This document shows positions 134 to 35,546 of a stretch of 64,000 nt of DNA, piece by piece. This DNA comes from Rhizobium sp. RM (GTDB taxonomy: Bacteria > Pseudomonadota > Alphaproteobacteria > Rhizobiales > Rhizobiaceae), in NCBI RefSeq assembly GCF_013390595.1, contig NZ_JACAWV010000007.1:124001-188000 (forward strand). The letters are read 5' to 3'. Both the position numbers and the translations under genes were made by a program. A model generated the notes under the pieces. That model had not been told where the DNA came from. It saw nothing but the letters and a program-made list of their open reading frames with translations, and did no database searches. Within the stretch, counting starts at the first letter, position 1; every line of letters starts with the position of its first letter.

Positions 134-1264
134 TCACGATGCTTTTGTCGCAGTAAGGTCACGATCAAACAGGGTCGACCAGGTAAACTGTTTTGCAGCA
201 GATATCTCTCGCGAAACGTCAAGTCGCGGTAAAACCTTTTCGCCGAAGCGAAACGCTTCCTCAAGCAGCGGCATCCCGGACAGGATGAAGGTCTCCACGC
301 CCGCCTTGCGATAGGCCTCAAGTGTGCGGATAACTGTGTCAGGTGATCCAACAATGGCTGTCCCAGGACCTGGTCTCACAAGGCCGATACCTGCCCAGAG
401 GTTTGGCGCGATTTCCAGATCGCGGAGATCCTGTGGCTTGTTGCCACCGTGAAGCGCAGTCATACGCTGCTGGCCAACAGAATCCGTTTTCCCAACAAAG
501 CGCTGATTGGCGGCAATCGCAGTTGCGTCCATCCTTTTATAAAGGTCGGCAGCCGCTTCCCATGCTTCTTCGTCCGTATCACGCACGATAACATAAAGGC
601 GTATACCGTATTCCAGGTTACGCCCGAGTTTTTCGGCGCGTGCCTTTACGATCTCGATTTTCGCTCCGATCTGTTCCGGCGTCTCGCCCCAGGAAAGATA
701 GGTTTCAACGTGTTTTGCAGCAACCTCGATCGCCTTGTCGGACGATCCGCCGAACCACAATGGCGGTGGCTCAATTCCCTGTCCAACCGGCAGTGCAAGC
801 TTTGCTCCCTCGGTTTTGAAATACTTTCCGTCGAAATTCACCGTATCGCCAGAAAACAGCCGATGCCAAATCTGCAGGTATTCGTCGGCCATGTCGTAGC
901 GCTCGTCATGCGGCATCGTCATCCCGTAGGCGCCAAGCATTTTCGCATCGCCTGAGACGACGTTAATCAACAACCGCCCGCGTGAAAACTCCTGCAAAGT
1001 CGCCGCCATTTTACCAAGCAGTGTCGGTGCGACGAGCCCGGGATGGATCGCGACCAGGAGCTTCAACCGCTCCGTATAGGACAGGAGTGCGCCGGCCAGG
1101 ACCCAGACATCATGGGCCCCAGTCGCAAACAAGGCGCCGGTGTAACCGAGTTGGTCATAAGCAAGCGCCAACTGCTTGTAGTAACCGAGATCAACCTTGC
1201 GGGAACCTTCTGGCTGCCAGGGATAGGCACCATCTGGAGCGCACATGTACCAGAAAACGTTCAC
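134..1264 (-). CDS. FMNH2-dependent alkanesulfonate monooxygenase family protein (SsuD-like, divergent active site)
   Basis: A 376-residue cytoplasmic luciferase-like monooxygenase, close in length to E. coli SsuD (381). Collinear SsuD motifs include WFGGSSDKA (170-178), TDSVGQQRM (260-268), APNLWAGIGLVR (286-297) and LSGMPLLEEA (328-337). SsuD cleaves alkanesulfonates to aldehyde and sulfite using FMNH2 from a partner reductase; no reductase gene lies beside this copy. Compared from memory with E. coli SsuD, Arg222 and Arg297 are kept but His228 is Tyr224, Tyr331 is Met331, His333 is Leu333, and the Cys54 region is shortened. SmoC in this same window keeps the His and Tyr. Substrate is therefore uncertain; a sulfonate or sulfone is likely from the operon. 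Its start codon overlaps the stop of the upstream ssuA-like gene by 4 bases. Confidence 0.85.
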   Translation of the reverse strand: MNVFWYMCAPDGAYPWQPEGSRKVDLGYYKQLALAYDQLGYTGALFATGAHDVWVLAGALLSYTERLKLLVAIHPGLVAPTLLGKMAATLQEFSRGRLLINVVSGDAKMLGAYGMTMPHDERYDMADEYLQIWHRLFSGDTVNFDGKYFKTEGAKLALPVGQGIEPPPLWFGGSSDKAIEVAAKHVETYLSWGETPEQIGAKIEIVKARAEKLGRNLEYGIRLYVIVRDTDEEAWEAAADLYKRMDATAIAANQRFVGKTDSVGQQRMTALHGGNKPQDLRDLEIAPNLWAGIGLVRPGPGTAIVGSPDTVIRTLEAYRKAGVETFILSGMPLLEEAFRFGEKVLPRLDVSREISAAKQFTWSTLFDRDLTATKAS

Positions 1265-2115
1265 TTTTTCACTCCAAGGCGTTCGAGCGACACCCCGGTT
1301 TGCACCGGTGATTTGAAATGTCCATGCCGGTAAAGCGTTTCGGCTTCCTCCTGCTGTTCAGCAAGGATTTCCGGCGTTGCCTGTCCAACAGAGAGATCTC
1401 GGGAGAGAAGCACTTTTTCCCAGAATTGCGCATCCCCTTCGCTGCCTGGTTGGCTGGCAAGAAGGACAGCCGCTCCTTTTATATCCGCCATGACCAACTG
1501 ACCAATGCGATCAAGTTCAAAGGCAACGGCCGCGATCTTTTCGGCAGAAAATCCGTGATGCCCAAGCGTCCAGAACAGGGAACGGTTCGGAATTGTGGAG
1601 CCGCAACGAACAAGGACGTGCAAAGCCTCGTGACCAAGTGCCGTCTCAAGCCGTGGAGACATGGTAACCCATGCATCGACCCGCCCGTCTACGAGATCTC
1701 GCAGTGAATCGCTGTCACCGCTTTCGATCCTTGTTACGTCGGATAAGCCCAGTCCTTCGCCTTCGAGACTTCGAGCAAGAAGGTAAGTATGGAACGAACC
1801 GTCAATCAGTGAAATATCCCGCCCCACAAGATCGGTAACAGAGCGGATTTGGCTGTCCTTGCGGACAAGTATCGCACCGTTGGCAGGCCTTGGCGCGGAT
1901 GCAGCGATATAGGCTACTCCAAGCCCTCGGGCATCGGCCTCGATTGGTGGGGTCGATCCGGTTCCACCGAAGTGGATATCACCCTTTTCAAGCAAGGACG
2001 CTGTATCCCGTCCTTCCTTGTAAAGTACGAACTCAGGATCGAACGACTTGAACGCATCCGGCCAAAGCCGGGCGAGCCGCAAATGGAGATTGTTGGGATG
2101 CACCCCGATTTTCAT
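1261..2115 (-). CDS. SsuA/NMT1-family sulfonate-type substrate-binding protein lacking a signal peptide
   Basis: A 284-residue periplasmic-binding-protein-like fold of the aliphatic sulfonate/nitrate/taurine type: strand-initial MKIGVHPNN, a ligand loop around GDIHFGGTGSTPP (46-58), and SVTDLVGRDIS (92-102) as in SsuA. SsuA proteins usually begin with a secretion signal. Here the mature domain starts at residue 1, and an in-frame TGA lies 7-9 bases upstream of the ATG, so no N-terminal extension is possible. The start has a good ribosome site (GAGGTGG). First gene of the minus-strand operon with the SsuD-like monooxygenase and a permease. It either works without export, has lost its signal, or is now a cytoplasmic sulfonate-binding protein. 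Confidence 0.8.
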   Translation of the reverse strand: MKIGVHPNNLHLRLARLWPDAFKSFDPEFVLYKEGRDTASLLEKGDIHFGGTGSTPPIEADARGLGVAYIAASAPRPANGAILVRKDSQIRSVTDLVGRDISLIDGSFHTYLLARSLEGEGLGLSDVTRIESGDSDSLRDLVDGRVDAWVTMSPRLETALGHEALHVLVRCGSTIPNRSLFWTLGHHGFSAEKIAAVAFELDRIGQLVMADIKGAAVLLASQPGSEGDAQFWEKVLLSRDLSVGQATPEILAEQQEEAETLYRHGHFKSPVQTGVSLERLGVKK

Positions 2116-12339: not shown

Positions 12340-12867
12340 TTACTGCTTCGAAAACCGGCCGAACGTACCACCGGAGAAACACAACGGGTCGCCATCTCGA
12401 TGTGCGGCTCGCAGCACCTCGCCAATGATGATCGTGTGGTCACCCGCATCATGCGCCACCGAGCGACGGCACTCGAACCGAGCAAGAGTCCCCGGTATGA
12501 CCGGAACACCTTCCGCATTCGTTTCCCACGCCAGATCGTCGAAAGCCCGACCGCTTTTGACGAAACGCATCGACAGAGAATCCTGATCGGCGCTTAGCAC
12601 ATGGATGGCGAAATGCGTTGCGTCGTTAAAGGCGGTATGGCGCGAAGAACTCTTGGCTGGCGACCAGAGAACCAAAGGCGGATCGAGGGACACCGACGCA
12701 AAGCTGTTTACGGTGATACCAATCGGTCCATCCGCCGTCGTGGCAGTCACAACTGTGACACCCGTCGTGAATGCGCCAAGCGCATTGCGGAAACTGCGAC
12801 TATTTTCACCACCCGGAACAAAAACATGTTCGTTGGGCATGCTGACTGCTTCAACCATTGTCATCAC
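12340..12867 (-). CDS. smoA: SmoA, NADH-dependent FMN reductase of the sulfoquinovose monooxygenase
   Basis: A 175-residue flavin reductase of the HpaC/RutF split-barrel family. Motifs seen: FRNALGAFTTGVTVVTATT (about 26-44), the flavin-binding GITVNSFASVSLDPPLVL (49-66), and HTIIIGEVLRA near the C-terminus. In the oxidative sulfoquinovose pathway it makes FMNH2 for SmoC. It is the third gene of the minus-strand unit smoC-smoB-smoA; its ATG overlaps the smoB stop by 4 bases. Near the N-terminus there are alternative Met codons (residues 1, 2, 4 and 10), and the exact start is uncertain by up to nine codons. Confidence 0.95.
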   Translation of the reverse strand: MMTMVEAVSMPNEHVFVPGGENSRSFRNALGAFTTGVTVVTATTADGPIGITVNSFASVSLDPPLVLWSPAKSSSRHTAFNDATHFAIHVLSADQDSLSMRFVKSGRAFDDLAWETNAEGVPVIPGTLARFECRRSVAHDAGDHTIIIGEVLRAAHRDGDPLCFSGGTFGRFSKQ

Positions 12868-13757
12868 GGCACCTCACGTCCGGTTGCAAGTGTGTAGAGT
12901 TCAAACCACGTTTGACGATCGAGCTTTACGCGCGTTGCATCAGATGCTGCAGCAATTCGCGCCAGATTGTTGGTTCCCAGCACCGGTATGATCCTGGCCG
13001 GGTGACGTAGAAGCCATGCGACGGCGACTGCAGTGGCATCTACACCCTGCTCATTGCCAATCCGTTCCAAAGCGGCAAGCAGCTCTCCCCGATCGGCACT
13101 GAAGAGCGAACCTCCGCCAAGCGGCGACCATGCCATCGGGAAAACCCGCTTTTCCTGCACGAAGGCAAGATCACCATTGGTGAAGGCTTCCGTAGCGACG
13201 AGGCTCAACTCTATCTGGTTCGTTACCAAGCGATTGCTCATTGCCGATTGCAGCAATGAAAAGTCATAAGGGCGGAAGTTCGAAACACCGACAGCTTTCA
13301 CCTTGCCGCTGGCAACGAGTGCATCGAGCGCCTTGCCTGTTTCTTCCGGATCGATCAAAGGATCTGGCCGATGGATCAGGAGGAGATCGACGTGATCTGT
13401 TCCTATGTCCTTTAGCGATGCATCAACGGAGGCGTTTATGTGACCGGCTGTCGTGTCATAGTGCTTCACGCGAGCTGCGGCGTGACGACCGACGGGAGCT
13501 ACAATTCCACATTTCGTGACGATCTCGATCTTATCGCGCAGCGAAGGTGATGCCTTCAATCCGGCGCCAAGGATCGCTTCGGCGGTATAGCCGCCGTAAA
13601 TGTCGGCCTGATCCATGGTCGTAATGCCTTGAGAAAGGCAAGCTTCGATCTTGGCCTGAACATGGGCCGGAGAGGTATCCGCATCATCACCGATGCGCCA
13701 CATGCCATAAACGATGCGGCTGAGTTCAAGTGTTTCAGAAAGAGCGATGCGTTCCAT
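12864..13757 (-). CDS. smoB: SmoB, aldo-keto reductase: 6-oxo-glucose to glucose
   Basis: A 297-residue aldo-keto reductase with the TIM-barrel AKR tetrad visible: Asp in TMDQADIYGGY (catalytic Tyr next to it), Lys in IVTKCGI, and His in LLLIHRPDP. The C-terminal region AWLLRHPARIIPVLGTNN is the NADPH-binding segment. In the SMO pathway it reduces 6-oxo-glucose (6-dehydroglucose), the product of SmoC, to glucose with NADPH. Its start shares one base with the smoC stop and its stop overlaps smoA, so the three are a tightly coupled operon. Confidence 0.95.
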   Translation of the reverse strand: MERIALSETLELSRIVYGMWRIGDDADTSPAHVQAKIEACLSQGITTMDQADIYGGYTAEAILGAGLKASPSLRDKIEIVTKCGIVAPVGRHAAARVKHYDTTAGHINASVDASLKDIGTDHVDLLLIHRPDPLIDPEETGKALDALVASGKVKAVGVSNFRPYDFSLLQSAMSNRLVTNQIELSLVATEAFTNGDLAFVQEKRVFPMAWSPLGGGSLFSADRGELLAALERIGNEQGVDATAVAVAWLLRHPARIIPVLGTNNLARIAAASDATRVKLDRQTWFELYTLATGREVP

Positions 13758-14914
13758 CAGTGGCGTTCCCCGTTGCCGAGCGGCGTGGCAGGCGTTTCAG
13801 TGGGCACCCGGCCATAGGCATGAGGCAGGGAGCAGGTTTTCATTTGCGGGAGAACCTTGGTGCCGAAATGTTCGGCTTCGTCAAGATGCGGATAACCGGA
13901 AAGGATGAAGGCTCGGATGCCCATCTTCTGGTAATCCTCCAGCGCCGAAAGCACCTGATCGGTGGATCCTACGAGTGCAGCACCGCAACCGGAACGGGCG
14001 CGTCCGATGCCAGTCCACAGATTGGGTTCGACGTAACCAAACTTGTCTGCAAGTTCGCGGGCGCGCGCCTGATGCGAGACACCGAGCGATCCGCTGTCGT
14101 GTGCGCGATTGCGAATAAGCTGCCCGTACTCGTCATCGAGTTTAGAGACGAGGTGATCGGCGTATTCCCGCGCTTCTTTTTCGGTGTCACGTACGACCAT
14201 GTGGACACGAAGCCCGTAGTCCAAAGTACGCCCGTGCGCGGCAGCGTGCGCATTGGCAGCGCGCATGCGATCGGCTAGCTGGTCCTTCGTTTCCGGCCAC
14301 ATCAGATAGACATCACATTGCGCGCCGCAAAGCTCCAGAGCATCAGGCGAATAACCGCCGAAATAGAGAAGCGGACCACCATTCTGCTGATAGGGTCGCG
14401 CCGGGTCAGTCGATATCCCCTTGAACTGGTAGATCTCGCCATCGTGATCAATCGTATCGCGTGTCCAGGCCTGTCGCAGGATTTGTACAACCTCGTGGCT
14501 GCGTTTGTAGCGATAGGCGCTATCGGCCACTTCACCAGGGAAATCTGAGCTGATTACGTTGAGCGTCAGCCGGCCCTTCAGCATGTGATCGAGTGTCGCG
14601 ACGGTACGCGCCAGCATGATAGGCTGCATCTCACCGCAACGGATCGCGGCAAGAAAATTGATACGATCACTGATCGGGGCACAGCCCGCAACAAAACTCA
14701 AAGTGTCCTGCCCAACCTGATAGGATGAAGGGCAAAGGATATTGCGGAATCCGAGTTCCTCCGCCTTTTTGACGATGTCCGAGCAATGCTCCCAGCTCGA
14801 CCGCAGGCTGCCATCCGGTACGCCGAGATAGGCATAGTCATCGGAACACAGCGCCGAGAACCAGGAGACCTCGGCAGCGTCGATGTCAGCGGATGTTACG
14901 GGTACGACGGTCAT
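13757..14914 (-). CDS. smoC: SmoC, FMNH2-dependent sulfoquinovose monooxygenase
   Basis: A 385-residue SsuD-type flavin monooxygenase. It converts sulfoquinovose, O2 and FMNH2 to 6-oxo-glucose and sulfite, the carbon-sulfur cleavage of the oxidative SQ pathway. Residues equivalent to the SsuD active site are kept: Arg236 and His238 in YGLRVHMVVR, Arg307 in GIGRARSGCG, Tyr341 and His343 in LSGYPHLDEA. The start has a good ribosome site (GAGGAGGAA), and a putative -35/-10 pair (14971-14976, 14948-14953) lies upstream with the 19-bp candidate SmoD operator over the -35. First gene of smoCBA. The family call is secure; SQ as substrate follows from the neighbouring sulfoquinovosidase and the exact match to the known gene order. 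Confidence 0.96.
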   Translation of the reverse strand: MTVVPVTSADIDAAEVSWFSALCSDDYAYLGVPDGSLRSSWEHCSDIVKKAEELGFRNILCPSSYQVGQDTLSFVAGCAPISDRINFLAAIRCGEMQPIMLARTVATLDHMLKGRLTLNVISSDFPGEVADSAYRYKRSHEVVQILRQAWTRDTIDHDGEIYQFKGISTDPARPYQQNGGPLLYFGGYSPDALELCGAQCDVYLMWPETKDQLADRMRAANAHAAAHGRTLDYGLRVHMVVRDTEKEAREYADHLVSKLDDEYGQLIRNRAHDSGSLGVSHQARARELADKFGYVEPNLWTGIGRARSGCGAALVGSTDQVLSALEDYQKMGIRAFILSGYPHLDEAEHFGTKVLPQMKTCSLPHAYGRVPTETPATPLGNGERH

Positions 14915-14970
14915 TCATTTCCTCCTCAATGCCGCTCTCGTTTTTCTTGCATAACATCAAGAAATATGTA

Positions 14971-14989
14971 AATCAATGATGTATCAATT
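14971..14989 (-). promoter_or_regulatory. Putative SmoD operator, copy 1 (smoC-smoD intergenic)
   Basis: On the minus strand AATTGATACATCATTGATT. It contains two direct ATTGAT units 11 bp apart, one helical turn. The copy upstream of smoE (15851-15869) differs only at two central bases. The second ATTGATT supplies a -35 (TTGATT) with a 17-bp spacer to TATGCA, so a bound repressor would block smoC. Being 27-45 bases from the smoD start it could also control smoD. Confidence 0.7.
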
Positions 14990-15015
14990 TTTGTTTAGCG
15001 GGAGGCGTGGCAAAC

Positions 15016-15720
15016 ATGAAGAACACGGGTGGAAGTCTGCCGATGTATCTGCAGATTGCAGAAATGCTGGTGAGAGAGGTCGCTGCAGGCCGGTTGATTG
15101 ATGGCGAAAAGCTCGCTCCGGAACGGGACATGGCGGCAGATTTGGGTATCGCGGTTGGCACGTTGCGTAAATCACTCGCCGAACTCCAGGAACGCGGTTT
15201 GCTGGAGCGCATTCAAGGGTCCGGCAACTACATCCGCGCTGTCAGCGATCCCCAGAGCGTCTATGCGTTTTTCCGACTGGAACTGATCAATGGCGGCGGT
15301 TTGCCCACGGCGGAGGTTCTGGACGTGCAGAGACTTGCAAAACCCGCTGATCTTCCGGATTTCGGCGCCTCAAGCGAAGGCCACCGGATCAGGCGCCTGC
15401 GCCGAATTTCTGGAAAACCGGCAGCAATCGAGGAAATCTGGCTGGACGGCTCGTATGTTGACCAGATCACTCTCGATAACCTTTCCGAGTCTCTCTACCT
15501 CTATTACCGCACACGGCTTAACCTCTGGATCTCGAAGGCCGAGGATCGGATCGATCTCGGCAAGACGCCGGACTGGACGCCGGAAATTTTCGGACAAAAC
15601 GCCGGCTCTCTTGTGCCACGCGTCCTACGCCTCAGCCAGGCACAGGACGGAACAGTCGCCGAAGTTTCATGGACATGGTTTGACCATAGCGTTGCGCGTT
15701 ACGTGTCCCGTATGCGCTGA
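15016..15720 (+). CDS. smoD: SmoD, GntR-family (HutC/UTRA) transcriptional regulator
   Basis: A 234-residue regulator: N-terminal GntR wHTH (MYLQIAEMLVREVAAG, then LAPERDMAADLGIAVGTLRKS, about 10-50) and a C-terminal UTRA ligand-binding domain (RIRRLRRISGKPAAIEEIWLDG, then SLYLYYRTRLNLWISKAEDRI). The ATG at 15016 is preferred: the GGAGG at 15001-15005 is 10 bases away, whereas the alternative GTG at 15007 is only one base from it. It is divergent from smoCBA and lies before smoEFGHI. HutC-type repressors usually bind a sugar or sugar acid as inducer; SQ or SQ-glycerol is the obvious guess. Confidence 0.93.
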   Translation: MKNTGGSLPMYLQIAEMLVREVAAGRLIDGEKLAPERDMAADLGIAVGTLRKSLAELQERGLLERIQGSGNYIRAVSDPQSVYAFFRLELINGGGLPTAEVLDVQRLAKPADLPDFGASSEGHRIRRLRRISGKPAAIEEIWLDGSYVDQITLDNLSESLYLYYRTRLNLWISKAEDRIDLGKTPDWTPEIFGQNAGSLVPRVLRLSQAQDGTVAEVSWTWFDHSVARYVSRMR

Positions 15721-16043
15721 ATTTTGCAGCACAGAGCAATATAGAAATTTGACTGCCGGCAAGGGAAGGAGCGCCCCCAATGCGACATAATTTCGGGATA
15801 TATTTCTATAATTCAACAGCTTGCAAGTTTTTGATTTCTGTCAGAAATAAAATTGATACACTATTGATTTCCTATTAACGAACGGTAATATCACTAACCA
15901 AGGGAGATTGGCGTTTCGCCGCCCCACGGCATCATCCCGGCGACGGGTCAGATTCCGACCGGGAACGATGCGCCGTTATTGGAGGCTTGAATTGACCGCA
16001 GCGTCGTCGTGACGTCGGACATTCAGGTCATGAGGAGGAAAAC
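15721..16043 (+). promoter_or_regulatory. smoE promoter and structured 5' leader
   Basis: 323 bases between smoD and smoE. A candidate promoter has TTGATT at 15864-15869 and TAATAT at 15886-15891 (16-bp spacer), overlapped by the second operator copy. The transcript would have a leader of about 145 bases with several possible stems: GGCG/CGCC at 15910-15920, TCCCGG (15935-15940) with CCGGGA (15959-15964), and CGGCG (15938-15942) with CGCCG (15971-15975), some mutually exclusive. A 14-codon ORF starts at 15968. It matches no riboswitch class I know. A strong GAGGAGG precedes the smoE ATG. Confidence 0.5.
15851..15869 (+). promoter_or_regulatory. Putative SmoD operator, copy 2 (upstream of smoE)
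   Basis: AATTGATACACTATTGATT, 17 of 19 identical to copy 1 at 14971-14989 (read on the other strand). Both lie in the same orientation relative to the promoter they cover, with the right-hand TTGATT serving as the -35. This shared placement is the main reason for calling it an operator and not a chance repeat. Confidence 0.7.
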
Positions 16044-17120
16044 ATGGCTTCGGTCAGCCTGCGAAAGCTGGACAAGAGTTACGGCGCGCTGCGCATCGTA
16101 AAAGGTATCGACCTCGAAATTGCCGACGGCGAATTTGTGGTATTCGTCGGCCCGTCCGGCTGCGGGAAATCAACGACATTGCGCATGGTCGCTGGCCTTG
16201 AGGGCATCACCGGCGGTGACGTTCTGATCGGTGACCGGGTCGTGAACAAACTGCCGCCACGTGAGCGAGACATCGCCATGGTATTTCAGGACTATGCGCT
16301 TTACCCGCACAAAACAGTCCGCGAGAACATGGGTTTCAGCCTCAAAGTACGTGGCGTAAACGCATCGCAGGCGAATGCCAGCATTGACGAGGCTGCAAAG
16401 ATGCTCGGGATCGAGCACCTTCTCGATCGTCGACCAGGGCAACTTTCCGGCGGCCAGCGTCAACGTGTGGCCATGGGTCGCGCGATCGTAAGGCGCCCAC
16501 AGGTGTTCCTGTTTGACGAGCCGCTATCCAACCTTGATGCGAAGCTTCGCGGACAGGTCCGAACCGAAATCAAGCGACTGCACCAGCAACTCGGCACGAC
16601 GATCATCTATGTCACCCACGACCAGGTCGAGGCGATGACATTGGCCGATCGCATCGTCATTTTGCGGGGCGGCGATATCGAGCAGGTTGGCACGCCGGAC
16701 GAAGTTTACAACAATCCGCAAAGTGTGTTTGTCGGCGGTTTCGTCGGCGCCCCTGCAATGAACTTTGCAAAAGCCAGGGTTACCGGTGACACCCTGTCCT
16801 TCAGTGACGGAAATCGGCTACCCTTGGCAGCTGTCCGCAAGACGCGTGAAACAGCACTTGAGGGTCGCGATGTCATCGTGGGCATCCGTCCTGAGCACTT
16901 TGGGCCGGCGGAGGCTTTTCCCAGCCAGCTTTCAGTCACCGTACAGGTGGTTGAACCGCTCGGTTCAGACACACTGGTCCATTTCACCCTCGGCGACGCC
17001 GCACTGACGGCAAGAATGCCGCCACAGGAGCGGCCCATACCCGGGCAAATCATGAATATCGGTGTAGACCCCTCCAAGGTGCATCTCTTCGACGCACAGA
17101 CGGAACGGTCGATCCATTAA
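16044..17120 (+). CDS. smoE: SmoE, ABC transporter ATPase for SQ-glycerol import
   Basis: A 358-residue MalK/UgpC-type ATPase. Walker A GPSGCGKST (36-44), Q-loop FQDYALYPHKTV, signature LSGGQRQR (134-141), Walker B VFLFDEP (154-160) and switch His192 (YVTHDQ) are all intact; the C-terminal third is the OB-fold TOBE region (IGIRPEHFGP). It energises SmoFGH import. First gene of the plus-strand operon smoE-F-G-H-I, with 52 bases to smoF. It is preceded by GAGGAGGAAAAC, a very good ribosome site. Confidence 0.95.
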   Translation: MASVSLRKLDKSYGALRIVKGIDLEIADGEFVVFVGPSGCGKSTTLRMVAGLEGITGGDVLIGDRVVNKLPPRERDIAMVFQDYALYPHKTVRENMGFSLKVRGVNASQANASIDEAAKMLGIEHLLDRRPGQLSGGQRQRVAMGRAIVRRPQVFLFDEPLSNLDAKLRGQVRTEIKRLHQQLGTTIIYVTHDQVEAMTLADRIVILRGGDIEQVGTPDEVYNNPQSVFVGGFVGAPAMNFAKARVTGDTLSFSDGNRLPLAAVRKTRETALEGRDVIVGIRPEHFGPAEAFPSQLSVTVQVVEPLGSDTLVHFTLGDAALTARMPPQERPIPGQIMNIGVDPSKVHLFDAQTERSIH

Positions 17121-17151
17121 TACTGATACGGCTGTGTCCGTTGTCGCATAA

Positions 17152-18408
<1,257 letters not shown>

Positions 18409-18417
18409 TAAAAACCC

Positions 18418-18455
18418 GGCCGGAAAGCGCGCTGATAAACCGCATCTTTCCGGCC
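18418..18455 (+). other. smoF-smoG intercistronic stem-loop
   Basis: GGCCGGAAAG (18418-18427) and CTTTCCGGCC (18446-18455) form a perfect 10-bp stem with an 18-base loop, right after smoF. There is no T tract, so it probably protects the upstream mRNA 3' end, or partly terminates, as in malE-malF. A second hairpin, CGGACC (18497-18502) with GGTCCG (18515-18520), lies just before the smoG ribosome site. Confidence 0.6.
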
Positions 18456-18537
18456 CACTTTCTCAAGCAGACAACCGCCCGACAGACGCGGTAAAACGGA
18501 CCAGACGACATGTCGGTCCGATCGGGAGACGACTGAC

Positions 18538-19497
18538 GTGAATCCAGTTGCAGGAGTGGCAGACGTGACGATGCCAGAAAGAACCATGGTCAGGATCGAC
18601 GAGAAAAAGCCACCCCGGTGGGTCCGATTGCTCGATCTCGGCGATGGTCCTCTCGCGGTGATGCTTCTGGCTCCCGCAGCAATCCTTTTGACGCTTATCA
18701 TTGTCTATCCTGTAGGGCGACTGGTCTACACGAGCTTCTTCAGCCTTTCTCTGACCTCAGGTTTGCCTGCGGAATTCATCGGCTTTGAAAACTATGTCGC
18801 GATGTTCGATGATCCGGTATTTTGGGAAACCACCTGGAACACGGTCTTGATCACGCTGATTACTGTGCCGGGAGCGCTTTTCGTTGGTCTCGGGTTGGCG
18901 CTGCTTGCCAACCTGCCCTTCACGATGCAGTGGCCGATGCGGCTGTCGCTACTTATTCCATGGGCGCTGCCACTATCATTCGCCGGTCTGATTTTCGCGT
19001 GGTTCTTCCATTATGAATATGGCGTCGTCAACGATGTCTTGAACCGACTGGGTTTTGAAGGCGTTATCTGGTTCAATTCGCCTAACTGGGCGTTTGCTGC
19101 AATTTGCCTGACGATCATCTGGAAAACATCATCCTTCATGGCATTGATGATCCTGGCCGGCCTGCAAACCATCCCCAAGTCGCTCTACGAGGCAGCAGAC
19201 GTTGATGGCGCGGGTAAAGTCAGACAATTCTTCGAAATCACCCTGCCCCTCCTGAAGCCTTCCATCGTCGTGGCTCTTATCTTCCGTACGATTACGGCGC
19301 TTCAGACATTCGATATTCCTTTCATGATGACGGGTGGCGGTCCAGGGACATCAACCACGACATTGGCCATGTACATCCACCAGAACACGGTATCGTTCCT
19401 TGATCTCGGTTACGGTTCGGCGCTTGCGGTGATGATGTTCGCGCTGTCGATGTGTGTGACGGCCGTCTATCTCCGCATTATCCGGGCCAAGGAGTAA
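18538..19497 (+). CDS. smoG: SmoG, ABC permease subunit (MalF/UgpA type)
   Basis: A 319-residue inner-membrane permease with six predicted helices, the first being AVMLLAPAAILLTLIIVYPV. The cytoplasmic EAA loop that docks on the ATPase is EAADVDGAGKVRQFFEITLPLLKP (about 221-244; only its start EAADVDGAGK is diagnostic). The GTG at 18538 has GGGAG 9 bases upstream. A second GTG at 18565 (AGGAG 8 bases upstream) and ATG at 18571 are possible alternatives and would remove 9-11 residues. Works with SmoH, SmoE and SmoF. Confidence 0.93.
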   Translation: MNPVAGVADVTMPERTMVRIDEKKPPRWVRLLDLGDGPLAVMLLAPAAILLTLIIVYPVGRLVYTSFFSLSLTSGLPAEFIGFENYVAMFDDPVFWETTWNTVLITLITVPGALFVGLGLALLANLPFTMQWPMRLSLLIPWALPLSFAGLIFAWFFHYEYGVVNDVLNRLGFEGVIWFNSPNWAFAAICLTIIWKTSSFMALMILAGLQTIPKSLYEAADVDGAGKVRQFFEITLPLLKPSIVVALIFRTITALQTFDIPFMMTGGGPGTSTTTLAMYIHQNTVSFLDLGYGSALAVMMFALSMCVTAVYLRIIRAKE

Positions 19498-19502
19498 TTA
19501 TC

Positions 19503-20357
19503 ATGAGCACCGTCGCCACCTCCGGCCTCGCGTCATTCTTTTCCGGCAAGCCGCTACGTTTTATTGCCGCCTCCATCCTTCTGGTAAACGGCCTGTTTCC
19601 TGCGATCTGGATTCTGTTCACATCGCTCAAGACAGAGGCAGAACTCACGGCAAAACCGATCACCTGGCTCCCCCATGTGCCGACGCTTGCCAATTACATG
19701 CAGGCATTCTCCGACCAACCGCTGCACCAGTTTCTTTTCAACAGTTTCATGGTAGCGTTGCTTTCAACTGCATTGACGATCCTGATTTCGGTATTGGCGG
19801 CCTATGCCTTAGCGCGTCTCAACCTGAAATACCGGGCGTTGATTCTTTCGCTTATCATCGCAGTATCGACGTTTCCGCTGGTCACCCTGCTGGTTCCACT
19901 GTTTGAAATTATGCGCGCGCTCAACTTGCTCAACAGCTGGACGGCACTCATATTGCCTTACACGGTGCTTTCACTTCCAGTGTGTACACTGATGCTGGTT
20001 TCATTCTTCGAGAGTATTCCGCGCGACCTAGAAAATGCCGCCATGATCGACGGGTGCACCCGCATCGGCGCATTGTTCAAGGTAGTCGTACCGCTCTGTG
20101 CACCTGGCGTTTTCACGGCCGGCATTCTTGCCTTCGTCAACGCCTGGGATGAATTTCTCCTTGCACTTTCATTCAACTCGAACCCGGCTCTTCGCACCCT
20201 TCCGGTGGGCATTCAGCTCTACCAGGGCGAGTTCGCTTTCCCCTGGCCTGTCATTTCGGCAGCACTGGTGGTCGGCATTGTGCCTGTCGCAATTCTGATC
20301 GTCATTTTCCAGGAGCGGGTTGTTTCCGGGCTCACCGCAGGCGGTCTAAAAGGTTAA
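19503..20357 (+). CDS. smoH: SmoH, ABC permease subunit (MalG/UgpE type)
   Basis: A 284-residue permease with six helices (LRFIAASILLVNGLFPAIWI first). The EAA-type loop is ENAAMIDGCTRIGALFKVV, near residues 178-196. The ATG at 19503 is chosen because AAGGAG lies 8 bases upstream; the frame is open further back to 19452 but that would overlap smoG. It starts 5 bases after the smoG stop and ends 3 bases before smoI. Confidence 0.94.
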   Translation: MSTVATSGLASFFSGKPLRFIAASILLVNGLFPAIWILFTSLKTEAELTAKPITWLPHVPTLANYMQAFSDQPLHQFLFNSFMVALLSTALTILISVLAAYALARLNLKYRALILSLIIAVSTFPLVTLLVPLFEIMRALNLLNSWTALILPYTVLSLPVCTLMLVSFFESIPRDLENAAMIDGCTRIGALFKVVVPLCAPGVFTAGILAFVNAWDEFLLALSFNSNPALRTLPVGIQLYQGEFAFPWPVISAALVVGIVPVAILIVIFQERVVSGLTAGGLKG

Positions 20358-20360
20358 GTC

Positions 20361-22352
20361 ATGTTACTTGAAAAGACTGATGAAGGATTCACGTTGTCGA
20401 TCGACGGACGCGTGATCCTGACCCATACCCCAAAAAAACCCGCATTCTTTGCCGGTTTCGGTCAGGAGCGGATGGATATGTATCGCGGCAACTTCGATAT
20501 CGAAGACTATGTCGTCGAACGTTCGCCGCTTCATCACGCTGATGTCGATCGCAATACCATCTCGCTGGCATCTGCGGCGGGACAGCCGCCGCGATTGCAA
20601 CTGACGCTGGACGGCAACATCCTTCGCTTCACGACACTTGACGAAAGCATCAATCGCCTCTGGCTGCGGACTGTTGCGGAGCCTGACGAGCATGTCTGGG
20701 GTGGCGGCGAGCAAATGTCCTACTTCGACATGCGTGGCCGGCGTTTTCCGCTCTGGACCTCCGAACCGGGCGTCGGTCGCGACAAGACGACAGAGATCAC
20801 ATTCAAGTCTGACGTCAGTGGCAAGGCAGGGGGTGACTATTACAACACCAATTACCCCCAACCGACCTACCTCTCGTCTCGCAGATACGCCCTCCACATA
20901 GAGACCAGCGCATATTCCGCCTTCGATTTCCGGAGCGATGATTTTCACGAGCTGGAGATCTGGGCAATTCCGGAAAAGATCGAGTTTTTCTCAGCCGATA
21001 GCTTTGCCGATATCGTCTCGATGCTCTCTTTGCGTTTCGGTCGCCAGCCCGAACTGCCGGAGTGGGTTTATAACGGCGCGATCATTGGTTTGAAGGACGG
21101 CGTGAATTCCTTTGCGCGGCTGGAAAAAATCATGGCTGCTGGCACCAAGGTTTCCGGCCTATGGTGCGAAGATTGGGTTGGCCTTCGTCAGACCTCGTTC
21201 GGTGCGCGCCTGTTCTGGGACTGGCAGGCAAATGAGACACGCTATCCGCATCTGCGCCAGAAGATCGCCGAACTTGCCGATCAAGGCATTCGTTTCCTCG
21301 GCTACGTCAACCCCTACCTTTGCGTTGATGGCCCGCTGTTTCCGATTGCTGAAAAAGCTGGTTACTTCGCAACCGACAATGACGGAAAGACTGCACTGGT
21401 CGATTTTGGGGAGTTCGACTGCGGCGTTGTCGATTTCACCAATGCAGATGCAGCAACCTGGTTTGCCGAAGAAATCATCGGCAAGAATATGCTCGACTTC
21501 GGTCTGTCCGGCTGGATGGCGGATTTCGGCGAATACCTGCCGATCAACATTCACCTGGCCAACGGCGTGGATGCAAAACTGATGCATAATGCCTGGCCAA
21601 CTCTCTGGGCCGAGGTTAATGCCAGAGCTGTTGAAAGTCGCGGCAAGACCGGTGAGACACTGTTTTTTATGCGAGCAGGCTTCACCGGGGTTCAGGCACA
21701 CTGCCCGCTTCTGTGGGGCGGAGATCAATCGGTCGATTTTTCCCGACACGACGGCCTTGTCACGGTCATGTCAGGGGCGCTTTCCTCCGGCCTGCTTGGC
21801 AACGCCTATCACCATTCCGACATTGGTGGCTACACCAGTCTGTTCGGCAATGTGAGGACACCGGAGCTGCTCATGCGCTGGGCGGAAATGGCTGCTTTTA
21901 CGTCCGTCATGAGAACCCATGAAGGCAACAGACCCCGTGACAACATTCAAATTGACCAGGACGACGAGGTCCTGGAGCACTTTGCAAGGATGACGGCGAT
22001 CTACGTTGCACTTGCACCGTATTTGAAATCCCTTTCGTCGGAGGCAGCACAGACCGGCCTGCCAGTTCAGCGTCCGCTTTTCCTGCACTTTGAGAGCGAT
22101 CGACAAACCTATGCCATCCAGGACAGCTATCTCTATGGTGCAGACCTGCTCGTCGCTCCGGTATGGAAAGCAGGTGAAAATGACCGGTCGTTATACCTGC
22201 CAGGCAATATTGACTGGGTTCACGTTTGGAGCGGTGAGCGTTATGCGGGCGGCCAGAATGTCACAGTAGATGCCCCACTCGGCAAGCCAGCAGTATTCTA
22301 TCGCGCCGGAAGTGCATTCAGCTCAATTTTCGAAGCCGTACAGACGATCTGA
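20361..22352 (+). CDS. smoI: SmoI, sulfoquinovosidase (GH31)
   Basis: A 663-residue GH31 alpha-glycosidase without a signal peptide, so cytoplasmic. It releases sulfoquinovose from SQ-glycerol after import. The catalytic nucleophile is Asp388 in GWMADFGEYLP and the acid/base is Asp455 in LWGGDQS. The sulfonate-binding trio that separates sulfoquinovosidases from ordinary GH31 alpha-glucosidases is present: Arg283 and Trp286 (GARLFWDW) and Tyr491 (DIGGYTS). These numbers agree with those known for the A. tumefaciens enzyme, so function is assigned with high confidence. Last gene of smoEFGHI; a TPP riboswitch for the next operon begins 24 bases after its stop. Confidence 0.97.
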   Translation: MLLEKTDEGFTLSIDGRVILTHTPKKPAFFAGFGQERMDMYRGNFDIEDYVVERSPLHHADVDRNTISLASAAGQPPRLQLTLDGNILRFTTLDESINRLWLRTVAEPDEHVWGGGEQMSYFDMRGRRFPLWTSEPGVGRDKTTEITFKSDVSGKAGGDYYNTNYPQPTYLSSRRYALHIETSAYSAFDFRSDDFHELEIWAIPEKIEFFSADSFADIVSMLSLRFGRQPELPEWVYNGAIIGLKDGVNSFARLEKIMAAGTKVSGLWCEDWVGLRQTSFGARLFWDWQANETRYPHLRQKIAELADQGIRFLGYVNPYLCVDGPLFPIAEKAGYFATDNDGKTALVDFGEFDCGVVDFTNADAATWFAEEIIGKNMLDFGLSGWMADFGEYLPINIHLANGVDAKLMHNAWPTLWAEVNARAVESRGKTGETLFFMRAGFTGVQAHCPLLWGGDQSVDFSRHDGLVTVMSGALSSGLLGNAYHHSDIGGYTSLFGNVRTPELLMRWAEMAAFTSVMRTHEGNRPRDNIQIDQDDEVLEHFARMTAIYVALAPYLKSLSSEAAQTGLPVQRPLFLHFESDRQTYAIQDSYLYGADLLVAPVWKAGENDRSLYLPGNIDWVHVWSGERYAGGQNVTVDAPLGKPAVFYRAGSAFSSIFEAVQTI

Positions 22353-22560: not shown

Positions 22561-22617
22561 ATGATGTTGCATTACCGTTTGATTGTCACGCGACACCTCA
22601 GATCCGTTTGCCGCTAG
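22561..22617 (+). CDS. Possible 18-codon leader peptide before thiX
   Basis: ATG at 22561 with TCTGGAG ending 8 bases upstream opens an 18-codon frame (MMLHYRLIVTRHLRSVCR) whose TAG ends 4 bases before the likely thiX ATG at 22622. That ATG has no ribosome site of its own, so coupling to this peptide would explain its translation. The frame stays open further upstream to an ATG at 22423 inside the riboswitch, so the peptide could also be chance. Confidence 0.3.
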   Translation: MMLHYRLIVTRHLRSVCR

Positions 22618-22621
22618 TCAC

Positions 22622-23407
22622 ATGCGAGCCGCTCATGCGTTGCACGGCGTGCTGGTCCTGCTGATTGTATGGCAGACAGGCACATGGTTGCTCTCGCCTC
22701 CCCGCTACATATTGCCGACGCCATTCGACGTCTTCAGCGTTTTCATGCGCCAATCCGGCTTCCTATTCAGTCAGGCCGCCGTGACCTTGGCGGAGATGGC
22801 TATTGGCCTTGCATTGGGCATTGCCAGCGGGATTGCCGTGGCATTCTTCATCGCCGCCATGCCACGTTTGGGACGCCTTGTGTGGCCAATGGTGATTGTC
22901 CTTCAAGCGTTTCCGGTATTCGTCCTTGCTCCGATCCTTGTCCTCTGGTTCGGCTTCGGCATGGCCTCGAAAGTTGCCATGACCGCGATGATCATCTTCT
23001 TTCCTGTCGCATCCGCATTCAGCGACGGTCTCAGCAGAACCGATCGCGACATCCTGGATGCTGCCTCCCTGACCCAGGCAAGCGATTGGCAGATCCTCAC
23101 CATGTTGAGGGTACCCTTGGCTTTTCCATCGCTCGTTTCCGGGTTGCGCGTTGCTGCGCCACTTGCTCCGCTTGGCGCGATCATCGGCGAGTGGGTCGGA
23201 GCGTCGTCTGGCCTTGGCTTCGTCATGATCCAGTCAAACGCCCGGATGCAAACAGACGTCATGTTTGCCGCGATGGCAATTCTGGCAGCGATGGCGGTGC
23301 TGCTTCGTCTGATTGTCGACCAAGCCACCAAGGGCTTCGCTCCCTGGGCGCACGAAGTCAAAAAACCTATTTATTCTAGAAACTTGCGGAGGAAATCCGA
23401 ACCATGA
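22622..23407 (+). CDS. thiX: ThiX-like ABC permease for a thiamine pyrimidine precursor
   Basis: A 261-residue SsuC/TauC-type permease with six helices; the first is ALHGVLVLLIVWQTGTWLL. The ATPase-contacting loop is near residues 150-165 (DAASLTQASDWQILTMLRVP). Position behind a TPP riboswitch and before an NMT1/THI5-type binding protein identifies it as the membrane subunit for a hydroxymethylpyrimidine precursor. Start uncertain: ATG at 22622 fits the family N-terminus, an in-frame TTG at 22583 would add 13 residues, and neither has a clear ribosome site. The expected ATPase gene (thiZ) is not in this operon. Confidence 0.85.
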   Translation: MRAAHALHGVLVLLIVWQTGTWLLSPPRYILPTPFDVFSVFMRQSGFLFSQAAVTLAEMAIGLALGIASGIAVAFFIAAMPRLGRLVWPMVIVLQAFPVFVLAPILVLWFGFGMASKVAMTAMIIFFPVASAFSDGLSRTDRDILDAASLTQASDWQILTMLRVPLAFPSLVSGLRVAAPLAPLGAIIGEWVGASSGLGFVMIQSNARMQTDVMFAAMAILAAMAVLLRLIVDQATKGFAPWAHEVKKPIYSRNLRRKSEP

Positions 23408-24348
23408 AAAGAATTTTTTTGCCACTCCTTTTTGCCGCAGCAAGTTTGCTTGTGCCAGCCCAGTCGCAAGCGGCTGACAAGCTGACGGTTCTCCTTGAGT
23501 GGTTCGTAAATCCCGATCACGCTCCCATGGTAATCGCGAGGGAACGCGGACTATTTGCAGATGCAGGGCTTGATGTTGAACTGATCCCGCCTGCCGACCC
23601 ATCTGCCGTACCGCGTCTCGTTTCGGCAAAACAAGCGGATATCGGTGTTCATTACCAACCGAACCTTTATCTCGATCATGACGCAGGGCTGCCCATTGTC
23701 CGCTTTGGAACGCTCGTCGAAACACCGCTGAACACGATCACGGTGCTGGCCGATGGGCCGATCAAGAGCCTGAAGGATCTGAAGGGCAAAAAGGTCGGCT
23801 TCTCGGTCTCTGGCTTCGAAGATGCTATGCTGAAGCGAATGCTGGAGAAAGACGGACTGAAAAAAGACGACGTTGAACTCATTAATGTGAATTTCTCGCT
23901 CTCCCCGTCCCTGATTGCTGGCAAGGTCGACGCAACGCTTGGCGGTTTCCGCAACTTCGAGCTGACCCAAATGAAGCTTGAAGGCCATGAGGGCCGTTCG
24001 TTTTTCCCGGAGGAACACGGTGTTCCAGCTTACGACGAACTGATTTTCGTCGCACACCGTGAGACCGCCTCAGATAGCCGCCTGCCACGTTTCCTCGACG
24101 CAGTTGAGCAGGCTTCCATCTTCATCACCAACCACCCGCAGGAATCGTGGCAAAATTTCATCAAGGCCTATCCGAACCTTGATGACGAACTGAACAAGTC
24201 CGCATTTTTCGATACATTGCCGCGTTTTGCCAAACGCCCGGCCGCGCTCGACACCAAACGTTACGCCAAATTTGGCGCATTCATGCAGGAGATGCAGCTG
24301 ATCAAAAAGGCACCTGCAGTCAGTGACATCGCAGTGGAACTGGAATGA
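23404..24348 (+). CDS. thiY: ThiY-like periplasmic binding protein (NMT1/THI5 family)
   Basis: A 314-residue exported protein: signal peptide IFLPLLFAAASLLVPAQSQA then ADKLTVLLEWFVNPDHAP, the NMT1/THI5 opening with the ligand-facing Trp and His. VSAKQADIGVHYQPNLY and SLKDLKGKKVGFSVSGFEDA are typical of the pyrimidine-precursor (formylaminopyrimidine) binders. It overlaps thiX by 4 bases and thiM by 4 bases. It would deliver precursor to ThiX for use by ThiD/ThiE. Confidence 0.9.
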   Translation: MKRIFLPLLFAAASLLVPAQSQAADKLTVLLEWFVNPDHAPMVIARERGLFADAGLDVELIPPADPSAVPRLVSAKQADIGVHYQPNLYLDHDAGLPIVRFGTLVETPLNTITVLADGPIKSLKDLKGKKVGFSVSGFEDAMLKRMLEKDGLKKDDVELINVNFSLSPSLIAGKVDATLGGFRNFELTQMKLEGHEGRSFFPEEHGVPAYDELIFVAHRETASDSRLPRFLDAVEQASIFITNHPQESWQNFIKAYPNLDDELNKSAFFDTLPRFAKRPAALDTKRYAKFGAFMQEMQLIKKAPAVSDIAVELE

Positions 24349-25100
24349 TGACGACATCCGTGGCAGAAACAATACCGAGAGCCGCGAAAGCGGCCGAGGT
24401 TCTCGAAACCGTCAGGCAGATGCGCCCCCGTGTGCATTGCCTGATGAATACGGTGGTTCAGAAATTCACGGCGGATGGCATCACAGTCGTCGGCGGAATT
24501 CCATCGATGACCACGTCGCTCGAGGAGATCGAGAGCTTCGTTATCAAGGCGGATGCCTTAACGATCAATCTCGGTACTCTCGATGCGGAGCGCCGTAAAG
24601 TTATCAGACTGGCCGTCGATATAGCCAATGCTGAAGGAAAGCCGTGGATCATCGATCCCGTTCATTGCGACTACTCCCCCTCCAGATTGGCCTTCGCCCA
24701 CGAACTTATTGCACTCGGGCCGACCATCGTGCGTGGCAATCACGCCGAAATGAGCCTTATCGGCGATCTACCTGGCATAGTCAGCATCGAAACTGGGCCA
24801 GTCGACCGCCTGAAAACCAAAGATCGGGCCGTAAAGATCGTAAACGGCCACCCATGGATGGCAAAGGTGACCGGAACCGGCTGCCTTTCCGGTGGCGTCA
24901 TCGCTGCATTCATGGCGGTTGAAAAAGATCCGCTCGCCGCAGCCAGCGCAGCCCTTAGCGTGACGGGCGTTTCCGCTGAGCTTGCAGCACAATATTCCAA
25001 TGGGCCGGGCAGCTTTGAGCCGGCATTTCTGGACGCGCTTTCAGCTCTTTCCGGCAACGACATTCTAATGCACGCGAGGATCGAACATGACCCAAGTTGA
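24345..25100 (+). CDS. thiM: ThiM, hydroxyethylthiazole kinase
   Basis: A 251-residue ribokinase-fold enzyme that phosphorylates 5-(2-hydroxyethyl)-4-methylthiazole with ATP for thiamine salvage. Diagnostic segments: CLMNTVVQKFTADG near residue 30, LTINLGTLDAERRK, PWIIDPVHCDYSPSR, IVRGNHAEMSLI, and VTGTGCLSGGVIAAF, the anion hole with the catalytic Cys. Length is normal for the family. Overlaps thiY by 4 bases and thiE by 14 bases. Confidence 0.96.
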   Translation: MMTTSVAETIPRAAKAAEVLETVRQMRPRVHCLMNTVVQKFTADGITVVGGIPSMTTSLEEIESFVIKADALTINLGTLDAERRKVIRLAVDIANAEGKPWIIDPVHCDYSPSRLAFAHELIALGPTIVRGNHAEMSLIGDLPGIVSIETGPVDRLKTKDRAVKIVNGHPWMAKVTGTGCLSGGVIAAFMAVEKDPLAAASAALSVTGVSAELAAQYSNGPGSFEPAFLDALSALSGNDILMHARIEHDPS

Positions 25101-25749
25101 TTACCGCCTTAACGCGCTGGTCGACGCCAGTCTTTCTGACATTGCCCCGCTATCGGAACTTGCCCTTTGTGCAGCGCTCAACGGCGCAACCATCCTGCAA
25201 TATCGCGATAAAACCAGTTCCACCCGTGCCATGATCGAAAATGCACGGGCGATCCGCGAAGCTATTATTGGCACGGGTGTTCCCCTGGTTATCAACGATC
25301 GCGTGGATGTAGCACTCGCCTCGGGAGCAGACGGTGTACACCTTGGTGTTGACGACATGGACGCAAAGACTGCACGACAAATTCTAGGTCGTAGCGCCAT
25401 CATCGGTCTCACGGTCAAGAACATGGCGGATGCGGTTCGGGCTGCTGCTATGCCGGCCGACTACGCTTGCATTGGAGGCGTTTTTGAAACCGTCTCGAAG
25501 GTCAATCCCGATGTGCCCGTCGGCATTGAGGGTCTCTCAACACTCCGAGCCTATTTGCGCGAGCAAAGGCCGGACATGCCGGTAGGCGCAATTGCGGGCA
25601 TTGATCTTGGACGCGTTCCAGCCGTAATTGCCGCAGGCGCCGACGGCGTCGCGGTCATATCGGCGATATTCCGCGCCACCGACATCTCCAAGGCTGCCGG
25701 TGACTTCCGTGCCCTGATCGACAATTCGCTAAAAGAGAGGGCGTCATGA
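25087..25749 (+). CDS. thiE: ThiE, thiamine phosphate synthase
   Basis: A 220-residue TIM-barrel enzyme joining HMP-PP and thiazole phosphate to thiamine phosphate. Seen in order: [14 protein letters not shown] (pyrophosphate-binding Gln-Arg-Lys), [33 protein letters not shown] (Mg-binding Asp), and [20 protein letters not shown] with phosphate loop VAVISAIF. Overlaps thiM by 14 bases and thiD by 4. Confidence 0.96.
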
Positions 25750-26543
25750 CCGCCATTGCCTTGACAATTGCAGGCTCGGACAGCGGTGGCGGCGCTGGTA
25801 TCCAGGCGGATATCAAAACCTTCTCGGCGCTCGGTGTCTATGCCGCCAGTGTCATCACTGCAATCACAGCCCAGAATACGAAGGGCGTAACGGCCGTCGA
25901 GGATATATCCGTTAGTACCATCAGCGCCCAAATGGATGCGGTCTTTTCGGATCTGAAGGTCGATGCGGTCAAGATCGGCATGGTATCGCGCATTGAAACC
26001 ATCGAAGCGATCGCCGCACGGCTTCGCGTGCAGCCCCAGCCCGTGGTGCTCGATCCTGTGATGGTGGCAACCTCAGGTGACAGGCTGCTGCACCAGGATG
26101 CAATTCAAACGCTTCGCCAGCAACTGTTGCCAATCGCCACCATTGTCACACCGAACCTGCCAGAAGCCGCCCTTTTGACAGGAAGGCCGCTCGCCGCGTC
26201 AAAACATGAGATCATCGAGCAGGCTGAAGCCATATTGAAGGTTGGTGCAAAAGCCGTCCTCATCAAGGGAGGACACAGCACCGGCGAGGAAAGCACGGAC
26301 TATCTTTTCACCGATGGAGCGATGCACGCCCTCTCAGCAGCACGTCTTGAAACGAAAAACGACCACGGCACCGGTTGCACACTCGCCGCTGCAATCACCG
26401 CGTATCTGGCGCTAGGTCATCAGTTGCACGACGCAGTCGGCCTGGCGAAAGACTATCTGCACGGCGCGCTTGAAGCCGGACGAGATCTTGCTGTTGGGCA
26501 AGGACGAGGTCCGGTGCATCACTTCTATCGCATGTGGAGGTGA
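25746..26543 (+). CDS. thiD: ThiD, hydroxymethylpyrimidine/phosphomethylpyrimidine kinase
   Basis: A 265-residue ribokinase-fold kinase catalysing two phosphorylations of HMP. Family marks: [18 protein letters not shown] (8-25), [36 protein letters not shown], and [14 protein letters not shown] with the catalytic Cys and anion hole (about 207-220). Last gene of the riboswitch-controlled operon; convergent with the Lrp-type gene 37 bases on. With ThiM and ThiE it forms a salvage route; ThiC and ThiG, for new synthesis, are not here. Confidence 0.96.
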
Positions 26544-34862: not shown

Positions 34863-35546
34863 ATGCGCATTCTCGTCATCAATCCCAATACCACGCAATC
34901 CATGACGGCAACGATTGCCGATGCTGCGACGCGCGCGGCAAGCAACGACACCGAAATCCTGGCAGTAACCTCCACCATGGGGCCGGTCTCCATTGAGGGT
35001 TATTACGACGAGGTTTTCGCCATACCAGGCATGCTCATCGAAGTTGCAAAAGCCGAAAAGCTCGGGGCGAAAGCAGCTGTCATCGCGTGTTTCGACGACA
35101 CAGGGCTCGATGCCGCACGCGCGCTAGCCACCATCCCGGTGATCGGGATCTGTGAAGCGGCCGTTGCAACAGCAGCGTTCATTGCCCAACGTTTTACCGT
35201 CGTTACAACCATGGAACGCTCAAGGCTTCCCGTTGAGCATCTCGTTCATCGCTACGGCATGGGAACGCGCGCCAAGGTCCGTGCAGCCGATATCCCGGTC
35301 CTTTCGCTCGAAGACCCCTCCTCCGACGCGATGCCTCGCCTGCGGGCCGAGATCGCAGCAGCGCTGTTGGAAGACAAGGCCGAAGCGATCGTGCTGGGTT
35401 GTGCTGGCATGGCCGATCTTGCTGCGAACCTCTCCAGAGAGTTTGGCGTGCCTGTGATCGATGGCGTTTCTGCAGCCGTCAGGCATGCAGAAACGCTTGT
35501 TTCGCTCGGCCTCTCCACCGCCAAACGCGGTGCATACGCCACTTGA
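34863..35546 (+). CDS. Aspartate/glutamate/hydantoin racemase family protein, possibly truncated at the C-terminus
   Basis: A 227-residue Asp/Glu racemase-superfamily enzyme. It opens MRILVINPNTTQSMT. The two catalytic cysteines are present: AAVIACFDDTGLDAAR (Cys75 by my count) and AIVLGCAGMADLAAN. These features are closest to hydantoin racemase. The final residues KRGAYAT are followed at once by a stop, where related proteins as I remember them carry some further residues. The stop lies at the point where the opposite-strand glucose dehydrogenase loses its homology, so a few residues may have been lost in the same event. Last gene of the ABC operon. Confidence 0.85.
   Translation: MRILVINPNTTQSMTATIADAATRAASNDTEILAVTSTMGPVSIEGYYDEVFAIPGMLIEVAKAEKLGAKAAVIACFDDTGLDAARALATIPVIGICEAAVATAAFIAQRFTVVTTMERSRLPVEHLVHRYGMGTRAKVRAADIPVLSLEDPSSDAMPRLRAEIAAALLEDKAEAIVLGCAGMADLAANLSREFGVPVIDGVSAAVRHAETLVSLGLSTAKRGAYAT

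Follow-up and report, generated by a model that had tools for sequence, protein, structure and literature searches.

Bacterial breakdown of sulfoquinovose (SQ) by the sulfoquinovose monooxygenase pathway, called sulfo-SMO or sulfo-ASMO, is described in two reviews (PMC9594981, PMC12890257) and in a 2026 study (PMC13372026), the available text of which names A. tumefaciens or Agrobacterium. According to the available part of the 2026 study, sulfo-SMO is prevalent in rhizobia, most of the Agrobacterium genomes that encode it are plant-associated, and the pathway is recognised by co-location of genes, with SmoB plus SmoC as the criterion. Here we analyse a 64,000-nucleotide stretch of the genome of Rhizobium sp. 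RM (contig NZ_JACAWV010000007.1, positions 124,001 to 188,000), referred to as the window. Its positions 12340-22352 almost certainly hold the sulfo-SMO locus of an Agrobacterium-type bacterium. Sequence comparison marks this locus as a near-identical orthologue of an already characterised system, and the pathway itself is already known. The sole new detail, a small addition to a known locus, is a candidate operator for the regulator SmoD.

The smo genes and their products

Nine adjacent open reading frames (ORFs) in the ORF list span 12340-22352, with smoA, smoB and smoC side by side on the minus strand and smoD to smoI on the plus strand. The divergent genes smoC and smoD are separated by 92 bases, and a further gap of 323 bases lies between smoD and smoE. 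The encoded proteins were compared with the sequences of solved structures and with NCBIfam models and their cut-offs.

SmoC (13757-14914, minus strand), the predicted FMNH2-dependent sulfoquinovose monooxygenase, matches 7olf over its whole length (866.6 bits, residues 1-385), with 13 differences in 385 residues counted by eye, and 7oh2 with 779.8 bits; such a match to 7olf identifies it as the SQ monooxygenase of the sulfo-SMO pathway. It is the sole smoC at that level in its own genome, where the closest other homologue has 35% identity. SmoB (12864-13757, minus strand) is an aldo-keto reductase matching 7bby/7bbz with 567 bits over residues 1-296, as expected of the 6-dehydroglucose reductase that forms glucose. 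The GH31 sulfoquinovosidase SmoI (20361-22352, plus strand) aligns over residues 3-663, and with no shift, to 5ohy (1337.6 bits) and 5ohs (1335.4 bits), and scores 960 bits against NF007746, whose cut-off is 553. It carries R283, W286 and Y491, which we take to bind the sulfonate, and D388 and D455, presumably the catalytic residues.

Of the importer proteins, SmoF (17173-18408, plus strand) matches the sulfoquinovosyl glycerol-binding protein 7nbz, one of six entries sharing the sequence, with 797 bits over residues 25-411. SmoE, SmoG and SmoH are assigned to the same importer by general family only. SmoE (16044-17120, plus strand) is an ATPase of the UgpC/MalK type and exceeds the cut-off of the UgpC model NF008653 (498 bits against 432), whilst SmoG (18538-19497, plus strand, start codon uncertain) and SmoH (19503-20357, plus strand) are permeases. 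The smoH ORF as listed opens at a GTG at 19452; the ATG at 19503 is the likelier start because AAGGAG lies just upstream of it. For SmoB, SmoC, SmoF and SmoI the E-values are 1e-169 or lower, so that chance matching is of no concern.

The remaining two assignments are broader. SmoA (12340-12867, minus strand, GTG start, sharing 4 bases with the end of smoB) belongs to the flavin reductase family by homology only (4xhy, 1.1e-49). It is FerA-like, and its 223.7 bits against the NCBIfam FerA model, under the cut-off of 260, count against the assignment; its role thus rests on position and fold family. SmoD (15007-15720, plus strand) is a GntR-superfamily regulator of the HutC type, matching YvoA at 3.5e-15, DasR more weakly, and GntR-family NCBIfam models below their cut-offs.

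An initial annotation had placed all nine sulfo-SMO functions next to one another in this region, and the nine ORFs are found there with functional assignments that hold at the sequence level. The HutC-type call for the regulator agrees with the YvoA, DasR and NCBIfam matches, and the five SmoI residues that it named are all present. The comparison of SmoI and SmoC with characterised proteins that it proposed gives near end-to-end sequence matches to 5ohs/5ohy and 7olf, and its remark that the route of A. tumefaciens is not new is borne out by the literature.

Gene content, gene order, near-identity to solved chains and the SmoI residues are read directly from the window; substrates and reactions are taken over from characterised relatives. 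On that analogy, SmoEFGH would import sulfoquinovosyl glycerol, which SmoI would hydrolyse to SQ. SmoC, using O2 and reduced flavin supplied by SmoA, would then cleave the C-S bond to give 6-dehydroglucose and sulfite, and SmoB would reduce 6-dehydroglucose to glucose. Sulfite would most likely leave through a TauE-type exporter or be reduced by a CysI-like sulfite reductase; the genes for both lie outside the locus.

It is very improbable that the genes form instead an ordinary ssu-type cluster scavenging sulfur from alkanesulfonates, with SmoC acting on simple sulfonates. SmoC is indeed an SsuD homologue, and separate SsuD-like and SsuA-like genes lie at 134-2115 of the window, but its score with SsuD (1nqk) is just 206.7 bits against the 866.6 bits with 7olf. 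It also falls far short of the curated NCBIfam cut-offs for alkanesulfonate monooxygenase, scoring 246 bits where one model requires 518.2 and 239.4 bits where the other requires 510, and the genes linked to it encode a GH31 sulfoquinovosidase and a sulfoquinovosyl glycerol-binding protein. As a sulfo-SMO locus, the region adds one more strain to the known and widespread recycling of plant sulfolipid carbon and sulfur by soil and plant bacteria.

A candidate operator for SmoD

Nearly the same 19 bases occur in both intergenic gaps of the locus. Candidate operator 1 lies at 14971-14989 (plus strand, AATCAATGATGTATCAATT; conserved core 14968-14990) and overlaps the inferred smoC -35 region, whilst candidate operator 2 lies at 15851-15869, in the gap between smoD and smoE, and reads AATCAATAGTGTATCAATT on the minus strand. 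They differ at two variable middle positions and have the same orientation relative to transcription. Each reads as a head-to-tail repeat, ATCAAT occurring twice, 11 bases apart. In the direction of transcription both become ATTGATACAnnATTGATT, and by eye a weak -10 follows the second TTGATT by 17 bases at smoC and by 16 at smoE. The putative smoC promoter (14948-14976, minus strand) would thus comprise TTGATT at 14976-14971 and TATGCA at 14953-14948, and that of smoE (15864-15891, plus strand) TTGATT at 15864-15869 and TAATAT at 15886-15891; a consensus promoter scan listed neither of them.

The site is rare. The window has two exact copies; when it was shuffled and up to 3 mismatches were allowed, the mean was 0.25 matches, and two were reached in 4 of 100 shuffles. 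Throughout the 5.59-Mb genome, the pattern RATCAATNNTGTATCAATT is matched exactly at just these two places, ahead of smoC and of smoE. No place matches it with 1 or 2 mismatches and eight do so with 3; the reversed-pattern control gave two matches.

Conservation was followed in 80 related loci (1.60 Mb), the best of at least 580 confirmed relatives and, being those nearest to the query, no random sample. With up to 2 mismatches to the pattern RATCAATNNTRTATCAATT, a site lies 63-173 bases before the smoC start in 79 of them; the reversed pattern has no match in any. A second site, 846-979 bases before the smoC start, is present in 23 of the 80, the same 23 in which SmoF exceeds 70% identity. 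The smoC-smoD gap of the window was aligned with those of 77 loci, 78 gaps in all, leaving out L078, L085 and L088, in which the two genes were not found as neighbours. Mean information is 1.77 bits per column within the 19 bases and 0.65 beyond 14968-14993; the inferred smoC -10 falls in another conserved block, at 14947-14958.

Across genomes, the site keeps company with the regulator. Of 199 family genomes taken from a larger group, 30 contain SmoC (E <=1e-150), and it is these 30 that contain SmoD (E <=1e-60). Exact matches to the pattern number 24 and come from 21 genomes, all of them among those 30, with no exact copy in the other 169 and none of the reversed control anywhere; Fisher's test gives p of about 1e-21 for the association of site with smoC/smoD, which, as the genomes are related, is no strict probability. 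Of the 24 exact sites, 22 precede a smoC by no more than 1 kb. G012 and G185, which belong to one genus, hold the remaining two, each placed 32 bases ahead of a stand-alone SmoA homologue of 56% identity (L127:5822-6352 and L129:4102-4608) set among unrelated genes; in the 11.0 and 7.7 kb examined there, no match to the other eight smo genes was seen. In each of these two genomes, a variant with a single mismatch also lies between smoC and smoD.

Nine of the 30 genomes lack an exact site, and each of them holds a variant between smoC and smoD, with 1 mismatch in two of them, 2 in another two and 3 in the remaining five. The last five share one variant, and their SmoD has just 45-48% identity; G115, with an SmoD of 48% and a 1-mismatch variant, runs against a simple trend. 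Contig 1 of G115 holds two smoC genes (1249512-1250666 and 1898434-1899585), with the exact site before the first and the 1-mismatch variant before the second, which adjoins smoD; the former site is among the 22 counted above. The overall distribution fits the co-evolution of an operator with its regulator, and is no proof of binding.

The 19-base site is likely to be the SmoD operator. SmoD would then act as a repressor of both smoCBA and smoEFGHI, binding this site at the -35 region of each and leaving it in the presence of the sugar or one of its breakdown products. We regard it as fairly probable that SmoD controls a small, closed regulon through the head-to-tail operator [A/G]ATCAATnnT[G/A]TATCAATT, which overlaps the -35 regions of its targets. 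In Rhizobium sp. RM the regulon would comprise smoCBA and smoEFGHI only, so that sulfite disposal would not be co-regulated; in relatives the operator would precede smoC whichever sulfoquinovosidase accompanies it, and in two genomes it would mark an unlinked flavin reductase. Literature searches found no publication on an SmoD operator.

Several observations weigh against this assignment. Operators of the GntR family are usually palindromes. A palindromic GntR-type site was sought and rejected: the best palindromes pair 6 of 10 positions in operator 1 and 4 of 8 in operator 2, and GTnTAnAC, which we take to be a HutC-type motif, is absent from both gaps of the locus and from all 78 smoC-smoD gaps. 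The missing motif and poor palindromes weaken the operator reading and raise the standing of its rival, in which the block is just a -35 or promoter element, or the site of another regulator. Overlap with the inferred -35 in both gaps would suit such an element, shared descent of the smoC loci inflates the conservation, and L088 has the site with no SmoD match in its 8.7 kb. We nevertheless judge this rival unlikely, although it deserves some weight. A -35 element is much shorter than this block, no third copy turns up in the genome even when 2 mismatches are allowed, and exact copies are confined to genomes with both SmoC and SmoD (21 of 21). In two related genomes the block also precedes a stand-alone SmoA homologue, with no other smo gene detected in the stretch examined, and L078, the one locus of the 80 without the site, is also without an SmoD match. 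An SmoD operator thus remains the preferred reading, and gives an easily tested starting point for studying how the pathway is turned on; if it is correct, genome-wide searches for the site could reveal unlinked SQ genes.

Sulfite and the neighbouring genes

In genome-wide family searches, no TauE-family (PF01925) or Oxidored_molyb (PF00174) match falls inside the window (C19:124001-188000), in agreement with the initial annotation, which had seen no sulfite exporter or dehydrogenase gene there. The genome search for an exporter that it had suggested returns seven TauE-family proteins, all outside the window. Its conclusion that the fate of sulfite is encoded elsewhere stands in so far as TauE-family and CysI-like candidates do lie elsewhere, and is narrowed in that no sulfite dehydrogenase is evident in the genome.

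A SorA-type sulfite dehydrogenase was rejected, the single PF00174 protein of the genome being MsrP (466 bits, cut-off 207). SoeABC was likewise set aside: no SoeA is evident among the six PF00384 proteins in an NCBIfam scan, the presence of an SoeA model in NCBIfam being unchecked. One of the six is NuoG and two are FdhF/YdeP, all over cut-off; two more are formate dehydrogenase/nitrate reductase-like and BisC/TorA-like, below cut-offs; and the sixth, without a resolved family, is flanked by NUDIX and RlmJ genes, with SoeB and SoeC not directly beside it. Three PF01077 matches lie at two places. At one, outside the window, a 592-residue CysI-like protein containing two sulfite-reductase repeats is encoded close to a CysG-like gene; the protein at the other, on the same contig as the window and beside a nitrate-reductase-like gene, is from its position probably NirB.

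A tblastn search of the 80 related loci at E 1e-3 with the seven TauE proteins (the ORF for four of them, the matched part for the other three) gave no match. In the partly annotated neighbourhoods of the TauE genes, of 10 proteins scanned, one is TauE and two are without a family. A remote, SmoD-regulated sulfite gene is not supported either: allowing 2 mismatches adds no site in the genome, and the eight 3-mismatch places compare with two for the reversed pattern. Judging by these family searches, the probable fate of sulfite is export or assimilation, not oxidation by a known dehydrogenase; naming the export route amounts to a guess among seven TauE candidates, which tells against that step of the proposed pathway.

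Other genes of the window touch on related chemistry. The SsuD-like monooxygenase and SsuA-like binding protein at 134-2115 (minus strand), 10 kb from smo, form a second sulfonate gene pair. The former is 35% identical to SmoC and scores 425.5 bits against PRK00719, under the cut-off of 510; the latter scores 96 bits, below cut-off. Directly behind smoI, at 22583-26543 (plus strand), are an ABC permease, a solute-binding-like protein without NCBIfam match and the hydroxyethylthiazole kinase ThiM, followed by frames that by eye are ThiE-like and ThiD-like; this is probably a thiamine salvage cluster. At 35479-37635 (minus strand), a 718-residue frame for a membrane-bound glucose/quinate/shikimate dehydrogenase dependent on pyrroloquinoline quinone covers only model positions 2-676 of 783. 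It looks truncated, as its C-terminal part was not seen by eye in the three frames just downstream. An NtaA/DmoA-family flavin monooxygenase at 46394-47704 (plus strand) follows what appear by eye to be an amino-acid-type ABC transporter and an MmgE/PrpD-like frame, and may belong to another sulfur or amine utilisation cluster.

Comparison with described systems

The closest described system is that of A. tumefaciens, whose smoA to smoI genes presumably bear the locus tags Atu3277-Atu3285 in what we take to be the same order as here; the solved chains matched by SmoC, SmoB, SmoF and SmoI are likewise assumed to come from that species. The functions are the same, these four proteins are near-identical to the solved chains and, in a comparison made through those chains, no material difference was found. 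With the SsuD/SsuE alkanesulfonate system the locus shares two-component flavin chemistry, in the account given by the available text of PMC9594981. It differs from that system in substrate and partner genes, SmoC being a distant SsuD homologue.

The nine Smo proteins and four neighbours were also mapped on all 80 related loci. The whole gene order and the neighbouring RND pump are kept in 10 of them (L009-L018, titled Agrobacterium or Rhizobium). GH31 SmoI is present in 33 of the 80, and 44 have a GFO/IDH/MocA-type gene without SmoI; no locus has both, and the three with neither (L022, L062, L088) are all short, at 8.4-11.7 kb. This split agrees with the complementary distribution of GH31 and NAD-dependent GH188 sulfoquinovosidases reported in the available text of PMC10755693, which, together with the Pfam domains of one representative, makes the GFO/IDH/MocA-type gene a probable GH188 sulfoquinovosidase. 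Loci of this second kind share the smoC core with the present one and lack SmoI, and the candidate operator, with up to 2 mismatches, is found in 43 of the 44.

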